DNA of 64,000 nucleotides from the NCBI GenBank assembly GCA_010093605.1, contig MU004195.1, positions 684,708 to 748,707 of the forward strand. Direction: 5' to 3'. Below the pieces are notes generated by a model that saw only the letters and a list, made by a program, of their open reading frames with translations, did no database searches and was not told the origin of the DNA. A program made the translations under genes and the position numbers. Source of the DNA: Lophium mytilinum (lineage: Eukaryota; Ascomycota; Dothideomycetes; Mytilinidiales; Mytilinidiaceae). This document shows positions 8,772 to 17,759 of the stretch, one piece after another. How positions within the stretch are numbered: position 1 is the first letter of the stretch; the number at the start of each line of letters is the position of its first letter.

Positions 8772-10523
8772 TCTGACGCTGGGGACAACGAGGAGCCCAG
8801 GGAAGAAGATGAGCTCGTGCTAGGTGAGGAGACAGTCTTAAGCGATTGTGGAAGTCGTCCCGATGACGGGATTGAGGTAGCTCTTCGGGCACTGTCACAG
8901 CGGATCGAGGGCTTGTCGTGCAAGAAGATTCGGTTGGATGCCCAAGTTGTTTTTGTTTGCTGTCACGTAACAAGAGCGAGTAGACTCTTTTCTTGCGGTA
9001 ACGGATGAAGATGAGGATGTGCAGGAGAAGGAGAGACCTGGAGGAAGGTAAGTTTATAGATAAGGGGTGCCGTGCGCCTGCCGTAGCCTTCACCGCTCCT
9101 TCCCTGATAGCCGACTGATGCGAGCTCTAGTCTTGTTCATATCTGCCTGTAGCTGTCTGAGGTGGTCCTTTTCGACATTCTTGTAGTGCAAAGGATCCAG
9201 AATATATTAGAATCCTTCAAGCGGTCGGGAAGTGTGCTTCACTGATACGCTAGGTGATGTTTGCCGTCACTGGGTCTTGTACGCTGTCAAAGCCTCCTAT
9301 CCCTTCTCATGAAAATGATAATGGTTAGTGGGCGCCAAATGGTCATCGCTTCGCTCTCACATGTAAAACCCTCACCGACACCCTACCAACTAAGCCTTCT
9401 TACTGGTACTACATCCCAGAGCACCACTCATTTGGCGAATAATTTTCGAACCCGGGTTAGCCTGTAGCAAATGCAAATATGCCGGCAAAAAGTTATTGTG
9501 AACTCATTCGACTGCCCGCTGCACCCGCAACGACGTTTAGGGACGTTGAGAGGGTCATAGTACGAATGAAGTACGAGTAGTAGACAGCAATATGCAATGG
9601 GTAGTCGTCTCTTAATAATATGGAATCCTATCGAGTTAAAGCCGATTGCGTAAATACGTTCAATGGAGACGAGTACGAGGACATGTCTTTGTATATTTTG
9701 TAGACATACAGGGCGTTGATTGGAGGTTCAAAGACAAAGAAATTTCTACACCAGGGATTTTTGAGTGGACGATCTCAAATTGGCCTCCGTAAACATAAAA
9801 GTAGGAAGTTGGTACTCACTATAATGTAAGTATATTAGCAAGTCATACACTGTTGTGCTTTACATGCTTCTGCTGTTTTCTTGGGGCGGGATCTCCGCTA
9901 GAATGTGAACAACCAGAGCTCCGTAGACTGTATCCTATAGACCGCCAACTGTATCGTTAGCTACATCTTAAATCACCACTAGGAATGGTCCGTGATCCAC
10001 CAGTGACCGATCTGATAGATCGCTTTGTCGCGTTTATGATGAAGAAAGCCACGAAAGCAGAGTGGTTTGGCGGAGGTCAAGACAACCGCACGCGCTTACC
10101 AAAACCAGTCTAGCGCCATGAACGAGTCGACAGACTCAACCCGCCCCCCCACCCCCCTGCCTATTAGATTTACCCCCATAAGATGTACATAAACGAGTGT
10201 TTCCTTCGTCCTTTCAAGTCTTCTCTTTTGTACATGTTCACTTCGATGACGTTTTCCCCCTCACAGCTCCGAAAGTCGAACTCCTTCGCCGAGACTGTAA
10301 TGGAGTCGACACTGCCCGGACCAGGCCCTTTGCCTATAGAGATAGAGTGGCACATTTATCCTACCATTCAACGATTGATCATTCATACTCTTTTTACTGC
10401 ACTGCATTACTTCGTGTTCGAGGGTCAATTGCGTATGCGCTGTCAAAGGGCACTGTGAAGGCTGTACACTTCACAATGTCCTTCACGGCACTCCTATACA
10501 CGTACAATGCGGCCTCGTTGTAT
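8772..10523. other. Gene-free stretch, 1.75 kb
   Basis: No supported gene. Near 9386-9396 the minus strand has an A-box-like word (GGCTTAGTTGG), but no properly spaced B box follows. A C-rich run lies at about 10140-10158. The stretch ends at the TATA box of the first nuclease-array gene. Confidence 0.5.
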
Positions 10524-10532
10524 TATATAAAT
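10524..10532 (+). promoter_or_regulatory. TATA box of array gene 1
   Basis: TATATAAAT lies 158 bases before the start codon. The same nine bases occur 141 and 136 bases before the starts of the two downstream paralogues, each followed after a few bases by CTCGA/CCTCG-like sequence. The repeated placement supports a working core promoter. Confidence 0.6.
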
Positions 10533-10681
10533 CATGCCTCGAAGAATTTCTGTATATCACCATACCTCAAGTCAAACTTCTCAACACTTCAAAGATTCTA
10601 GAGCACCAAAACCTGAAACTCTCTTCGCAAGGAAGTCTGCTTTCCACAACCATACACCAACCTACGCGTTCTCAGAACAGA

Positions 10682-11692
10682 ATGACTACCATTTCGGCCA
10701 CCCAAGGCTCATTCCCCACTGATATCTCGGAGATTCGAAGCAGGCTTCGATCCTGGAATCAAGTCAAAACGATGCGATGGGCATTAGGAAATGGGTCAGA
10801 GTCCGCTGAAAACCAACCCTCGAGTGCCATCCTTATCGCAATCGATTGCGAGTGGCACGAGAATGAACCCAGGGAGTTGACCGAAATCGGCATCGCCATG
10901 TTAGATACTCGGGACATCCAAGGCCTGGAACCCGGTCCAAATGCGGAGAACTGGCTCGACAAGATCTGGTTTTACCATTTGCGAATAAGGGAACATGGCC
11001 ACATGCTGAATACTAGGTTCTGCCCTGGACACCCAGATGACTTCAACTGGGGCACCACCAAGTGGGTGACGAAAGCGGAAGCATCGCGCGCGCTTCATGA
11101 CTTGTTCACCGAACGGGTCGAACCCCCCAAGCCAGAGCTCTGTCCTGTCGTTTTCCTTGGACACGCAGTTCATGGAGACTCCCAGAAGCTGGCAGAACAC
11201 CTCCAGTTTGATATGGGTGCCATTGGCTCGGTAGTAAGTACGCTCGATACCCAGGTAATCGCCAATGAATGCGGCTACCGTGGTAGAGGAGATACAATCG
11301 GCCTAGGTCCGCTGTGCTCGCGATTCGATATCAGCCCAAAGCACCTACACAATGCAGGCAATGACTCAGGCTACACACTTATTACTGCCGTAATGATGGG
11401 GCTAACTAGCGAGCAAAAGGAATTAGCCAAGGTTGACAAGCCTGTGGATAGCCTTATGACTTCGCTAATGGCCGCTAGGAAATCTTATAGGCCACCTTCA
11501 TGGGGAGTCGAGAGCTTCTGCACTCGCTGCGACCGCGTTGGTCACGTCCAACCTCAATGTAGGGCCCGAGTAGAGTGCTCCAAGTGCAAGGCCAAAAGCA
11601 GGAGAGGATACCGTAGCCACTCAACACATCGGTGCACAAGGGTGGAGCGAGTGTACGAATCGATGGACGAGTTTAACAACATCCAGTGGTAA
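10682..11692 (+). CDS. Gfd2/YDR514C-like DEDDh nuclease, zinc knuckle (array 1)
   Basis: The protein has 336 residues and no intron. It has an RNase H-like 3'-5' exonuclease fold of the Gfd2/YDR514C type. The DEDDh motifs are all visible: exo I IDCEWHE (D55, E57), exo II LGHAVHGDSQKL (D166) and exo III HNAGND (H223, D228), so two-metal catalysis looks possible. The C-terminus has a zinc knuckle CX2CX4HX4C (C280, C283, H288, C293), then a second Cys pair CSKC and an H...C pair, suggesting single-strand nucleic acid binding. It is the first of three head-to-tail paralogues. Its substrate is unknown; yeast Gfd2 is a multicopy suppressor linked to mRNA export. The nuclease assignment comes from motifs, not from a tested member. 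Confidence 0.8.
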   Translation: MTTISATQGSFPTDISEIRSRLRSWNQVKTMRWALGNGSESAENQPSSAILIAIDCEWHENEPRELTEIGIAMLDTRDIQGLEPGPNAENWLDKIWFYHLRIREHGHMLNTRFCPGHPDDFNWGTTKWVTKAEASRALHDLFTERVEPPKPELCPVVFLGHAVHGDSQKLAEHLQFDMGAIGSVVSTLDTQVIANECGYRGRGDTIGLGPLCSRFDISPKHLHNAGNDSGYTLITAVMMGLTSEQKELAKVDKPVDSLMTSLMAARKSYRPPSWGVESFCTRCDRVGHVQPQCRARVECSKCKAKSRRGYRSHSTHRCTRVERVYESMDEFNNIQW

Positions 11693-12981
11693 TTCGGTAC
11701 AGTAATCCCTTGTGTATGGCTTTATTTCTCTTGATCCATATTTCTCTTGATCCACGAAGCGGCCGCGGACATCCCAGCTTTTCTTAACGCTTTTTAGAAT
11801 CGACGGGCTAAGCTGCCCGTAGTTCCTAGTAATCACCCTTCAATGAAAACCCACGCAGGTTCGTAAACTTGATAAGAACTAATTTGTTGTTGAACCCAGT
11901 AATATCGAAAGTGAAAGGGTTTGAAAAGAAGGATATGGCTTACATCGAGGTACGCGACGAAGACTGAATTTTGACATAACAGCCTAGAATTCATAGAGGC
12001 AGTGTACGCGGAGGACATTTGACACTATGCAAATGGCAGTCGAGCTGCGATTGTCAGCATACGGTGTCTGTCTCATCGGTCAATAATCGGTGCTCACAAG
12101 CTACGGAGATTCCAGTTCTTCGCGTCTCACGCTCAGTACCCATCTCCGTCCCGTGTTTCAACCAACAAAATGCCTTGGGCGAGCATTTTGAGAGTTCGGC
12201 GCCAAGATCAGAAGCAGCTCTCAGCGCATGAAAGCTCATCAGCATGCCCTAAGAACTCACTCATTGAAGGCATGATTGCTCAACGCCGTGCAAACATGCT
12301 GCGGAGACTCACAATGAACCAAATAGCAAAGATATAGCAATTCGCACACGCAGCTAGGACCTAAGTATATTGCTTTCGAAGCGGGCAGCCGACCATGCCA
12401 TTCATATCGTTGGCTAGCATTTGCACCGTCGATATACTTTCAAACTCACCCAAACTATACCTGCGAGTCTTTCGGTTAATCTATTTTGTTCATCGCTTCT
12501 ACCCTTCGGTTCCATTCTATTTAACGAACGGTAAAGCATATATGAAACTCTCAAAGCCTGACTAAGAAGTACTAAAAGCATAGTTCAGATCCTGCACGTA
12601 ACTACTGGCAGGGTCTGATCATCGAAAGGTCTATGCATTGCATTGTCAAGACCCTTTATTCTACATCCTGGTGTGTTTAACAGGGCTGAGTGACAGCCAA
12701 CATAAATATGCTCACGGACCAAGACCTTACTTTGCATCTGTTGTCGAAAGGATACTATAAAGATCATTGGTTGATGCTAATATATGGAACGAAAGAAGAA
12801 GCCTCCCTACAACGAGGTACTTATCAAAGCTTTGCTTGGACATTTCAACCTGGATCCCACCATGACAGTGTGGGCGGGGAAGTTTGGCGATCAGGTGAAT
12901 GATCATTGAGCTCCGAGTATGAATGCATGGTGCCTGCAAAATCATTCACACTTCGAAACTCTCAAGCTGCTGGGATACCCC
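11693..12981. other. Spacer between array genes 1 and 2
   Basis: No gene can be supported. Open frames here are short and unlike the paralogues. I see no terminal repeats or transposon that would explain the duplication. Confidence 0.5.
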
Positions 12982-12990
12982 TATATAAAT
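12982..12990 (+). promoter_or_regulatory. TATA box of array gene 2
   Basis: TATATAAAT lies 141 bases before the chosen ATG at 13123, in the same position as in the sister genes. Because it lies inside the longer open frame that begins at 12919, it supports the internal ATG as the real start. Confidence 0.6.
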
Positions 12991-13122
12991 TACCTCGATC
13001 TCATGAATAGTCTTTACAAACCACAACACCTTCCACCACACCAGAAACACCAAACAAGCCACACCACCCAGTGTACCTCCAAAATCCACAAGCAATTCCC
13101 GTCTCATTTGCCAAACTGCAAA

Positions 13123-14454
13123 ATGTCCTGGGCGAGCATTGTCCGGAAGTCTCTCGAGGAATCAACGCCAGCATCGAGGCCACCAAATAGCTCGGCCAGC
13201 ATGGCCACTGCTATTCGAACTCCGGCAGCCCCAGGAACTACTCCTGTAGTTCCAAAACTGGTTCCTGCGGTTCCAAGAATCCTTTCCAAACAGGGTTGCT
13301 TTGCTCCAGCCGCTCCTGGGAAGGTTCGCGATTTGAACGACAACTCGACATCCTCCACTCCCGACACGCAATCAGTTCCTTCAACTAACGACTCGGAATC
13401 GTCAGCATCTTCGAGCCTTCCTGCTCCCGGAGTAAGCCTCCTGAACCGGAAGTGCAAATTCCCTCAACTCCATGACCAGATGGTTGGCTTGACGGACAAA
13501 GAAGCCATGCAGCATGCCCTAGAAATTAAATCGACTGAGAATGGGTCTACTGATATCGTCATCTGCGCCATCGACCTTGAGTGGCATGACGTCGAGCCAA
13601 GGGAGTTGACGGAAATTGGCCTTGCGATCCTCGATACTCGCGATTTCCACGGTCTAAAAGATGGACCGGGGGCGAATGGGGAGAATTTGATGAAGCAAGT
13701 ACAGTTCTATCATTACCGCATCAAGGAGCACGGCCACATGGAGAACAAATATTGCATCGGCCACCCTGAACGCTTTGAGTGGGGTACTACGATGTGGGTC
13801 AGCAAGGAAGAAGCCAAGGACATGATTATCAAGTACTTCACCCTTCGCACTAATGAGGCGGACAAGACGTCCGACCTACGACCCGTCCTCTTCCTGGGCC
13901 ATGCGATTGGAAATGACGAGAAAGAGATCAAGAAAGGCCTCGGCTTGGACATGGCTGACCTCGGAACCATTGTCAAGACTGTGGACACACAGGTGATAGC
14001 TAGGAACTTAGGCCTTGGTCCGCGTCGTGGCAGGAGAACCATTGGCCTCGAGAGTCTCTGCAACAAGTTCAAGATCAACCCTACGGAACTCCATAATGCA
14101 GGGAATGACATTGCATATTCTATGCTCTGCGCCCTCTTGATGGGTTACAAGGACTATGAGGTCAATGAACTCAGGGAGATCGACGATTACGACGAGATAC
14201 TCACATTGGCCACATCGAAAGTCAAGGAGGAGAAGGAGAAAATGACCCAACTAATCCACCGGATCAAGGAAATGGGGCGCTTGCAGAAGCAGCCGACCTA
14301 CGGTGTTCGCAGATACTGCATTCGGTGCAGCGCCGAAGGCCACTTCCACGTCAACTGCCGCGAACGCGTTCGATGCCAGAAGTGCGAGAAGGCCAAGCAG
14401 CCATGGCGTACGGTATTCAGCCACCAGACTGATCGGTGCCTACGATATTACTGA
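13123..14454 (+). CDS. Gfd2/YDR514C-like DEDDh nuclease, zinc knuckle (array 2)
   Basis: The protein has 443 residues and no intron. The frame is open from 12919, but the start MSWASIVRKSLEE is chosen because it follows the conserved TATA box and a CA-rich leader like those of the paralogues. Residues 1-110 form a Ser/Pro/Ala-rich disordered extension absent from array gene 1. The nuclease fold then shows exo I IDLEWHD (D151, E153), exo II LGHAIGNDEKEI (D265) and exo III HNAGND (H324, D329). A charged linker precedes the zinc knuckle C399-X2-C402-X4-H407-X4-C412 and the following Cys pair (CQKC). All catalytic acids are kept, so this copy looks active. Its MSWASIVRKS start differs from the other copies. 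Confidence 0.82.
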   Translation: MSWASIVRKSLEESTPASRPPNSSASMATAIRTPAAPGTTPVVPKLVPAVPRILSKQGCFAPAAPGKVRDLNDNSTSSTPDTQSVPSTNDSESSASSSLPAPGVSLLNRKCKFPQLHDQMVGLTDKEAMQHALEIKSTENGSTDIVICAIDLEWHDVEPRELTEIGLAILDTRDFHGLKDGPGANGENLMKQVQFYHYRIKEHGHMENKYCIGHPERFEWGTTMWVSKEEAKDMIIKYFTLRTNEADKTSDLRPVLFLGHAIGNDEKEIKKGLGLDMADLGTIVKTVDTQVIARNLGLGPRRGRRTIGLESLCNKFKINPTELHNAGNDIAYSMLCALLMGYKDYEVNELREIDDYDEILTLATSKVKEEKEKMTQLIHRIKEMGRLQKQPTYGVRRYCIRCSAEGHFHVNCRERVRCQKCEKAKQPWRTVFSHQTDRCLRYY

Positions 14455-15013
14455 TTCTCCTGTTGCTGCCTGGTATAGACAGTCATTCCTCAAGAAGGGC
14501 ATTTGGTAGCCGGCGTTCGATATTTTGAAGTATTGACAAGATCATGTCTTCGAAGAGCGATACCTTAGAGATTTAATCAGTACAAAGAGATGAGGCCGTG
14601 GCTTTGATTCCGAAACAATCCTCCCGTGGTGAGCTGCAGTGATGTTATGAATAAACCAAGATTTCAGCTACAGCTGAAGCCTCTGAGAAACTGACTTAGC
14701 AGCATCTGTAAGGTGCAATCAATGAACGTGATGGCAAAGCATCTCGAAAGTTTGTTTTAGATCTTGAGGACGTAGGCTAGCATTGCCCTGTTTCTCGCCT
14801 TGTCAGAGCACTTTGTCTGGCCATCCATGGTTTGCTCGTGGATGGAGGTACATGTACATAAAAGAACCGGGCGGCGTCCAACATCGAGCTGCTCGGCGAC
14901 CTGTCAGTCTGTATTCACCTGAAAACGTTGCATATCAAAGTGAACGCTCACAATGTCTGCCATCCACCACCCCGTCCACGTTATAGATTCACTTCGAGGG
15001 GCCATTCTGGGGA
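14455..15013. other. Spacer between array genes 2 and 3
   Basis: No gene seen. Short unrelated open frames only. The last part carries the promoter of the third copy. Confidence 0.5.
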
Positions 15014-15022
15014 TATATAAAT
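15014..15022 (+). promoter_or_regulatory. TATA box of array gene 3
   Basis: TATATAAAT followed by CAGCTCGA lies 136 bases before the ATG at 15150. The promoter word survives although the gene behind it is broken. Confidence 0.55.
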
Positions 15023-15149
15023 CAGCTCGAACTTTGCGATGTATAACTCACCACAACTTTTCCAAACCACCAAACCCACCTCCACCATACTCACAAGATT
15101 CTGGCAACCCTCTCTTTCAACCACAATTCCCACTTCATCTTCCGAGAAC

Positions 15150-16046
15150 ATGGCTGAGTGGGAGATCGTTACCAGGAAGCGCCGGCGCCCACAACAGCAG
15201 AAGCCAGCCATGGAGCAAGCCACGGAGCAAGCCACGGAGCCAACCAAGGAAGAAGTATTCTCCTTCTCGAAGATGGACCCTGACAGTTTCCATCATTACA
15301 TGGTATGGGATAAAGAGGACCCATCGGTGGATCCAAACTCGAAGTTTCCCGAACTGTTGCGCAAGATGACAAAACTCAGTGACATCGGGGCTCTCCGTTA
15401 CGCCATAGATTCTGGAGAAGATATGTTCATCAATGCCATCGATCTGGAATGGCACACTAGGCTTCCACACGATCTGATCGAGGTTGGCCTGGCAGTGCTC
15501 GACAGCCGCGACATTCGAGGCATGGCACCGGGCCGTAACGCAGAGAATTGGATGAAGAAGGCTTAAGTCTATCACTTCCGTATAGAGAAAGCAGGCCATC
15601 TCCCCAATACCCTCGCGAACTCGGAAGCCTTCAATTGGGGAAAGACGGTGTGGCTAAGCAAGAAAGACACCAAGGAGGCACTCATCCAGTGCTTTTCTTG
15701 GCCAGTGGACGATAGCCAGGGTGCCGATTTGCAGAAAGGCGAGAACGTCAAGCTAAGCCCCGTTCTCTTCCTTGGGCATGCCGTCGGCAACAATACAAAG
15801 GAGCTAAAGAAAGCTCTGGACCTTGACCTAGAGATTCTGGGTACCATTATCAAGACTGTAGATACCCAACAGATGGCCGAGACCATGGGAATCGGGCCAA
15901 AGCGACGTTCACGCCGGGTCATCGAGCTTCGTGATCTCTGCTGGGAATCTGAAGTCTACCCGAAGAATCTCCATAACGCCGGGAACGATATAGGATGCAT
16001 GGTAGGGGTTGATTTGATTTCGAGCGCCTTGGCTTTTGATGCATAG
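15150..16046 (+). pseudogene. Decayed Gfd2/YDR514C-like nuclease (array 3)
   Basis: The frame starts MAEWEIVTRKRRRPQQQ, with a repeated EQAT segment, and aligns with the sister proteins. It is interrupted by an in-frame TAA at 15564-15566, where array gene 2 has Gln (QVQFYHYRI against stop-VYHFRI); a CAA to TAA change explains it. The frame then resumes without a shift to HNAGNDIG, but about 10 residues are missing around ANSEAFNWG. The exo II aspartate is Asn (LGHAVGNNTKEL), and the protein ends before the zinc knuckle. Exo I (IDLEWH) and exo III are intact. Most likely this is a recent pseudogene; stop read-through, or use as a 138-residue fragment, cannot be excluded. Confidence 0.75.
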
Positions 16047-16743
16047 TATGGGTTGGGTCATTTTTGCGGATTCACGTGTACTCACGGTTTCCTTCAGCAC
16101 CTCATTTATACGACAAACGAGATGGCTTTGCTTATAGTTATCGACATAGCAAGAAGGCGCTTTTTGGCCGTAGTCCAAACACCCGGAAAACTGGGAGCTA
16201 TGTCCCTCAAAATTCCCGGTTATCTTTGCGGGTTACGAATTACGACCTTCAGATAATCAGAAAATCAACTTTTGAATGAACACGAGCCCCCATGATGCAA
16301 ATGAAAGTGCCATGAGGTTACTGACAGGGATCTGTTCCCCAGAACCGTTTTTGTGCCCATGCTTGTACGTCCCCACCCGGAGTGAACAAGTTCGTTCAGT
16401 GCTCACTGCGGCGGTGTCGTTCGAGGCAGTCTCAGCGCAGTATTTTCCTCCGTCCGTCCTCGCCATCTCCACGCGTAGGCGGCAGCAGGGCAGTCCATCG
16501 GCAACCGACCTCGGCGTCTGGGGGCCTTTTCCGTGTTCGGCGCCACCAGGTGCTCGGTCTGACGGGAACTTTGGTCCTGGGCTTGGCCTGTGCCGAAAGT
16601 AGCTTTCCAACCTCAACCTCGAGCTCCCGCCTGTCCCTAGGTCCTCTCCTCCATCCGCGCAATTGTGCTCTTCACCATCTCTCTACTCCGGCGCGCTCCT
16701 CACTCCCTCGTAGCATCCTCCACGTTCCTCACGTTCCTGCGCA
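16047..16743. other. Intergenic, upstream of adenylate kinase
   Basis: No gene seen. It holds the 3' remains of array copy 3 and the pyrimidine-rich leader of the adenylate kinase gene. Confidence 0.5.

Positions 16744-17759
<1,016 letters not shown>

Follow-up and report, generated by a model that had tools for sequence, protein, structure and literature searches.

Two intact genes and one pseudogene of a single exonuclease family lie in tandem in Lophium mytilinum, within the window, the whole 64,000-nucleotide stretch analysed here (assembly GCA_010093605.1, contig MU004195.1). Our preferred explanation, which falls a little short of an even chance, is that the two intact genes, g1 and g2, encode active QIP-like DEDDh 3'-5' exonucleases, most likely acting on RNA and serving silencing or surveillance as inducible or specialised duplicates. 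An array does exist, but it is smaller than in an earlier sequence-only reading, whose heading had given zinc knuckles to all three tandem genes on the strand: three stretches matching PF21762 (DEDDh_C) indeed follow one another head to tail on the plus strand (Table 1), and g1 and g2 carry the CX2CX4HX4C knuckle, whereas g3 is a pseudogene lacking it.

Table 1 Features of the exonuclease array and its surroundings (positions within the window)
Feature	Position	Strand	Description
g1	10682..11692	+	336-aa DEDDh exonuclease, intact
g2	13123..14454	+	443-aa DEDDh exonuclease, intact
g3	15150..15999	+	pseudogene, same PF21762 family as g1/g2
Segment X, 215 bp, replacing the g3 3' end	15998..16212	+	94% identical to the segment directly upstream of the c15b promoter region
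g3 upstream region	14616..15060	+	79% identity with the c15b upstream region (C15:1.51 Mb)
TATATAAAT upstream of g1	10524..10532	+	direct reading
TATATAAAT upstream of g2	12982..12990	+	direct reading
TATATAAAT upstream of g3	15014-15022		within the g3 upstream region
Possible relic upstream of g1, from the second zinc motif of another copy	9457..9528	+	stop inside
Possible relic from the start of translation of another g2-like copy	12166..12187	+	22 bp

That g1 and g2 encode nucleases is well supported. Pfam, the sequence match to a solved exonuclease and the Foldseek search all agree on the DEDDh fold proposed earlier, and the profile search placed both proteins in PF21762 and not in an unrelated fold, at 171.7 bits (E 2.4e-50) for g1 and 151.1 bits (E 5e-44) for g2 against a curated cut-off of 27 bits, with NCBIfam matches to DnaQ-type and related models all sub-threshold. 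One sequence match in the PDB is strong, the QDE-2-interacting protein QIP of Neurospora crassa (4wbq; profile E 4.4e-52, next match 0.0026; E 1.1e-24 for g1 and 1e-17 for g2), which is also the top Foldseek match of g1 (E 4e-10), followed by TREX1 and TREX2. QIP shares its fold with both array proteins, at 30% (g1) and 28% (g2) identity over about 200 residues, and alignment to it bears out the full Asp-Glu-Asp-His-Asp set claimed for two copies, with all five catalytic positions kept (D55, E57, D166, H223 and D228 in g1; D151, E153, D265, H324 and D329 in g2). The order DxE, Asp, HxxxxD is correct in these two genes but not in g3 (ExoII Asn, stop, truncation). The Foldseek match to 4wbq also lends indirect support to a putative spatial cluster of these acids around two metals. 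The AlphaFold models have a mean pLDDT of 74.2 for g1 and 67.5 for g2, whose N-terminus of about 100 residues is of low confidence.

In the C-terminal region, a CCHC knuckle (residues 280-293 in g1, 399-412 in g2) is followed by a second C-C-H-C motif (299-318 and 418-439), which is also found in one relative and which, like QIP as the closest solved relative, was absent from the sequence-only reading. The CX2CX4HX4C pattern arose by chance in 8/20000 shuffles of g1's own C-terminal tail and 13/20000 for g2, and it is present in eight of the nine non-truncated copies read in the genome (at most 19/20000 tail shuffles each). The array knuckles have the same CX2CX3GHX4C spacing as those of retroviral nucleocapsid, LIN28 and Air2, the last known from TRAMP RNA surveillance, but the matches to such proteins are weak (profile E 0.0026 to 0.96; g1 to Air2 E 0.013), the second site has a longer loop, and the scanned nuclease copies lie below the Pfam zinc-knuckle cut-offs: zf-CCHC_5 gives 11 bits against 27 in g1, g2 has no Pfam zinc-knuckle match, zf-CCHC gives 13.8 bits against 20.8 in copy c15b, c11b reaches 11.1 bits, and zf-CCHC_4 gives 14.8 against 27 in c13. 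Ten-residue mean pLDDT is 44-58 across the g1 zinc region; for g2, the knuckle scores 62-75 and the second site 44-62. Because the knuckle is below the Pfam cut-off and the zinc region is modelled at low to moderate confidence, we infer rather than observe that it acts as a single-strand binding module.

PF21762 has 13 matches in the genome, three of them partial, and in the tree ten copies together with QIP fall into three supported groups. The partner of QIP is c1a (support 95/96), a copy with an RGG tail and the probable QIP orthologue; the array forms a group of its own that includes a second pair 0.8 Mb away (96/97), and one-knuckle copies make up the third. The array is thus separate from QIP and c1a, and therefore function need not carry over; the array proteins moreover carry a C-terminal zinc module, which may set them apart from QIP. 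In Neurospora, the exonuclease QIP turns siRNA duplexes single-stranded (PMC8482848, PMC6764512), and a role in RNA control, earlier advanced as a mere hypothesis, gains a concrete basis because QIP is the closest testable relative. RNAi genes are present in the same genome, with three long stop-free Piwi matches of Argonaute (C12, C2, C15) and further Piwi matches on C1, RdRP at four places (at one of them, the frame read contains a TAG) and Dicer_dimer at two. Three of the Argonaute frames show an N-terminal knuckle pattern.

In the mechanism that we propose, Asp-Glu-Asp-Asp of the exonuclease domain would coordinate two metal ions, with the ExoIII His as general base, and the enzyme would trim a single strand from its 3' end, while the C-terminal zinc module (CCHC knuckle and second C-C-H-C site) would grip either single-stranded RNA or a partner complex, exposing the 3' end. 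The two genes g1 and g2 are duplicates in a family that here also includes a probable true QIP, and they would be inducible or specialised versions for RNA silencing or surveillance. RNA rather than DNA is assumed as the substrate. The next structural neighbours after QIP, TREX1 and TREX2, are DNases, which counts against this explanation.

For PF21762, which we take to be the Gfd2/YDR514C-like C-terminal domain, 'Gfd2/YDR514C-like', the name used in the sequence-only reading, may serve as the family label of the array proteins. The label 'Gfd2/YDR514C-like C-terminal domain' comes from PMC11412873, where an expansion under it is already reported in psychrophilic Dothideomycetes (OG0000354, 113 members in total), and the passages describing that group are silent on zinc knuckles, tandem arrays, any link to QIP and copy counts per genome. 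Yeast Ydr514c is a putative nuclease of stated unknown function; growth is slowed when it is overexpressed, and the defect of an rnt1 deletion is suppressed when it is lost (PMC13183374). Budding yeast is reported to have lost RNAi (PMC4778953), and therefore, if YDR514C belongs to the family, some of the family's roles lie outside RNAi. Both yeast phenotypes, together with the weak Air2 match of the g1 zinc region, favor general RNA turnover, with g1 and g2 as Ydr514c-type nucleases working on some pool of mRNA or structured RNA and not on small RNAs, their dose low because excess is toxic; however, among solved structures, the set compared, QIP is the nearest relative, and we regard this alternative as somewhat unlikely.

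As claimed earlier, N-termini and linkers are more divergent than the nuclease part. Among the five close copies, the exonuclease part shows 40-63% amino acid identity (10 pairs), compared with 17-37% for the N-terminus (eight of the ten pairs had enough codons, two of these eight just 11 and 12) and 12-24% for the linker; the zinc region shows 43-56% (linker and zinc region, 6 pairs each, g3 having neither). In the exonuclease part, dS is saturated and not computable (NG86) in all ten pairs at dN values of 0.26-0.57, which fits long purifying selection. The uneven divergence accordingly stands, but the specialisation that it was thought to suggest is weakened because one of the three array copies has decayed. 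This copy, g3, has an in-frame TAA at 15564-15566, Asn in place of the ExoII Asp and a truncation after ExoIII, and its PF21762 match is split into two pieces of 32.1 and 48.6 bits; its homology ends at 15999, and therefore it has no knuckle. The end given by the sequence-only reading, 16046, is the next stop and lies within the segment replacing the g3 end. RIP was rejected as the cause of the decay, since composite RIP indices of -0.58 to -0.92 (g1, g2, g3 and two gaps) give no signature.

The stretch 14932-15086 upstream of g3 shares 87% identity with a promoter on C7, that of a SET-domain gene. TATATAAATCAGCTCGAAC was rejected as a genome-wide core-promoter motif, occurring with up to two mismatches in only three places (g3, c15b and the C7 SET gene). 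Two short possible relics hint at further lost copies. In the one upstream of g1, 12 of 24 residues match g1 297-320 (E 0.006 in a 5.6-kb search), with no exonuclease part found beside it; in the other, 20 of 22 bases are identical to 13119-13140, a match equalled by 0/300 dinucleotide shuffles, with a protein match at E 0.66 only. In the g1-g2 gap, tblastn found no exonuclease remnants, and aligning the gap DNA with the complete coding sequences gave nothing remarkable, shuffles doing as well in 5/300 cases for g2 and 233/300 for g1. A birth-and-death family in decay, with little function left today and with g1 and g2 as the last intact array copies, would accommodate these possible relics, the broken g3, a copy without four of the five catalytic residues (c1b) and the three partial matches; yet g1 and g2 are open over their full length, keep catalytic and zinc residues despite saturated synonymous sites and have upstream TATA boxes, and we consider such an outcome quite improbable.

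Also quite improbable, finally, are TREX-like DNA 3'-5' exonucleases for repair or transposon cDNA clearance, with a knuckle binding single-stranded DNA, a proposal favored by the Foldseek rank of TREX1 and TREX2 after QIP (best E 2.4e-5) and by nucleocapsid and Gag knuckles among the weak profile matches (2bl6, E 0.0026), whereas the TREX matches are far weaker than QIP, at 12-18% identity among the 48 listed. A phage origin was also rejected: a search of 50,697 phage records gave no match to g2 at E 0.01.

A further and improbable reading would be that a zinc-knuckle second branch of RNA silencing evolved here, pairing QIP-like exonucleases that carry a C-terminal knuckle with Argonaute paralogues whose CCHC knuckle is N-terminal; both sets, locally multiplied and shedding broken copies, would jointly target a shared RNA class, e.g., transposon or mycovirus transcripts. 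In yeast, an excess of YDR514C is toxic; among the relatives, QIP has a described role. If the zinc-knuckle members do belong to silencing, there would be more strand-clearing nucleases here than the single QIP reported e.g. in F. oxysporum, of which each of 12 strains was reported to carry one (PMC6106068). This genome, in which 13 family matches accompany several Argonaute copies, offers a natural test of the place of zinc-knuckle members in RNA silencing, and also of what the added zinc module does.

The profile search of the window, 64 kb of contig C15 in a genome of 43.2 Mb and 24 contigs, placed the DEDDh_C family PF21762 at three places on one strand, here called g1, g2 and g3. Alignment to QIP, the QDE-2-interacting protein of Neurospora crassa (an exonuclease, PDB 4wbq), showed the full set of five catalytic residues preserved in both g1 and g2, and Asn instead of Asp at the ExoII position of g3. 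Homology of g3 to its nearest copy stops at 15999, and its zinc region is therefore lost. Given its in-frame TAA, the ExoII Asn and the lost zinc region, the array consists of two intact genes and one pseudogene; an error in the assembly might explain the TAA, but the other two lesions, at ExoII and at the truncated end, are separate from it. The title of the sequence-only reading had claimed three zinc knuckle proteins, but only g1 and g2 carry the knuckle (CX2CX4HX4C). By eye, an adenylate kinase-like gene with introns appears to lie just downstream of the array.

Coordinates of the features discussed (plain numbers, window positions; C, contig; L, extracted locus)
Feature	Coordinates	Length	Details
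g1	10682-11692	336 aa	all 188 PF21762 profile positions matched, E 2.4e-50
g2	13123-14454	443 aa	all 188 PF21762 profile positions matched, E 5e-44
g3	15150-15999		PF21762 in two pieces, split by in-frame TAA 15564-15566
Segment upstream of g1	9457-9528
Segment between g1 and g2	12166-12187
TATA-box segment	14932-15086	155 bp
SET-domain gene promoter, C7	L033:4386-4539
SET-domain frame, C7	L033:3381-4343
Segment replacing g3 end	15998-16212	215 bp
Its second place	C15:1514330-1514544
Adenylate kinase-like gene	16743-17759
c1b	C1:2170901-2171443 (L013)
Viral-contig exonuclease	L041:4737-5501		PF21762 E 6.7e-25
Viral-contig exonuclease	L042:4527-5594		PF21762 E 2.1e-19
Knuckle-first Argonaute frames	L062:354-1847, L062:4761-6299, L061:7416-8990		at C1:0.83 Mb and C1:2.19 Mb

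QIP is the nearest solved relative by both profile and structure. A nine-copy profile matched 4wbq at E 4.4e-52, followed by weak zinc knuckle proteins (E 0.0026 or higher), and single sequences matched it at E 2.2e-41 (c1a, a copy on contig C1), 1.1e-24 (g1) and 1e-17 (g2). In a Foldseek search with the g1 model, both 4wbq chains ranked top (E 4.0e-10 and 1.0e-9), with TM-scores by target of 0.70 and 0.72 and rmsd of 5.2 and 4.8; a TREX-like DNA exonuclease is one rival reading, and TREX1 and TREX2 follow 4wbq in this ranking.

The knuckle was found in eight of the nine non-truncated copies read (g1, g2, c15a, c15b, c11a, c11b, c13 and c1b, the further copies being named by contig), c1a being the one without it, and is intact in 8 of 13 PF21762 matches; when the tail of each copy was shuffled 20000 times, the pattern turned up 19 times at most. 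A partial match on C19 has a knuckle with Cys changed to Tyr in the frame read, and the partial matches at C15:1.37 Mb and C13:1.53 Mb have none in the frames read. A second motif, CX2CX10-12HX4C, on which the sequence-only reading was silent, follows the knuckle in g1, g2 and c15a, and in c15b Arg replaces its His. None of the nuclease copies scanned scored above the cut-off of any Pfam zinc-knuckle family, and 10-residue mean pLDDT was 44-58 across the g1 zinc region, 62-75 at the g2 knuckle and 44-62 at the g2 second site. Judged by pattern and conservation, this region likely binds zinc.

Genome-wide there are at least 13 PF21762 matches, 12 of them over the cut-off. A tree of ten copies and QIP, leaving out three partial matches, gave three groups: g1, g2, g3, c15a and c15b (96/97); c11a, c11b, c13 and c1b (100/98), with a very long c1b branch; and c1a with QIP (95/96). 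The copy c1a, which has an RGG-rich tail and no knuckle, is probably the QIP orthologue. Lacking an outside root, a tree of three groups gives no order of branching and so does not imply descent of the array from QIP. The exact five-residue set is present in four of the ten aligned copies (g1, g2, c15a and c1a). The catalytic Glu is Asp in c15b; c11a, c11b and c13 have Glu in the ExoII column with Asp adjacent, where the alignment may be one position off; and c1b, having lost four of the five residues (to Tyr, Lys, Ala and Gln) and kept its knuckle, may be a pseudo-enzyme. About 17 kb from c1b there is a Piwi match containing stops. Three loci were found on IMG/VR viral contigs (L041, L042 and L043); L041 and L042, on contigs of 224 and 290 kb, each encode a PF21762 exonuclease that passes the cut-off, and the frames read there show no knuckle. 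Family expansion as such is already in print, since PMC11412873 lists a Gfd2/YDR514C-like orthogroup as expanded in psychrophilic Dothideomycetes; for F. oxysporum, PMC6106068 reports one such protein per strain in 12 strains.

Among the five close copies, dS over the exonuclease part (NG86) was saturated and gave no value in all 10 pairs while dN was 0.26-0.57, which fits old duplicates under purifying selection. The upstream regions of g3 and c15b, about 0.8 Mb apart, are 79% identical over 454 columns, although the genes themselves agree at 41.5% of third codon positions. Within the g3 flank, the segment that includes the TATA box shares 87% identity with promoter sequence of a C7 SET-domain gene, unrelated to the nucleases; the 19-mer at this TATA box was found at just three places in the genome (g3, c15b and the SET gene), one with one mismatch. 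The segment replacing the g3 end occurs at two places in the genome, 94% identical, the other lying just upstream of the c15b promoter region. Either these flanks were exchanged or copied long after the gene duplications, or strong selection has kept them. Two further segments are tentative signs of lost copies, and no exonuclease remnant was found next to either: that upstream of g1 resembles the g1 second zinc motif (12 of 24 residues, an internal stop, E 0.006 in a search of 5.6 kb), and that between g1 and g2 shares 20 of 22 bases with the g2 start (equalled in 0 of 300 shuffles; as protein, E 0.66 only).

Long, stop-free Piwi matches lie on C12, C2 and C15. C1 holds further Piwi matches, several of them interrupted by stops in the frame read, where introns are possible; RdRP has four matches, one of which contains a TAG, and Dicer_dimer has two. 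A knuckle scan of open frames of at least 60 aa in 20 of these silencing loci, many overlapping and most short of a whole gene, found the knuckle at three distinct places, all N-terminal in Argonaute reading frames on C1. One has zf-CCHC (30.2 bits, cut-off 20.8), ArgoN and RGG-like repeats; the other two have ArgoL1 over the cut-off and no zf-CCHC match. These frames sit amid further C1 Piwi matches. The N-terminal region read of the C2 Argonaute has no knuckle, and the N-termini on C12 and C15 fall outside the stretch read. A tree set four C1 Argonaute pieces apart from the other three, weakly (70/84). The open-licence papers examined gave no description of a fungal knuckle Argonaute, and full-text searches of open-licence literature returned no paper combining zinc knuckle and DEDDh exonuclease, or one joining QIP, Argonaute, RNAi and expansion in Dothideomycetes; none of this proves absence.

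The analysis establishes the family and fold of these proteins, their catalytic residues and their knuckle pattern, and that copies have duplicated and decayed. DEDDh enzymes hydrolyse from the 3' end with two metals, the ExoIII His acting as base. General RNA turnover of the Ydr514c type is the chief rival: in yeast, according to PMC13183374, excess YDR514C is harmful, its loss helps rnt1 deletion cells and its function is unknown. QIP is reported to make siRNAs single-stranded in meiotic silencing (PMC8482848) and to aid passenger strand removal in quelling (PMC6764512). As QIP-like exonucleases, g1 and g2 would act on RNA, with the single strand held by the zinc module, and may serve in silencing or RNA surveillance. 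The knuckles in Argonautes and QIP-like exonucleases are a parallel within one genome and a candidate link only; because of that parallel, the two may work together as a zinc-knuckle branch of silencing, an unlikely reading at present.
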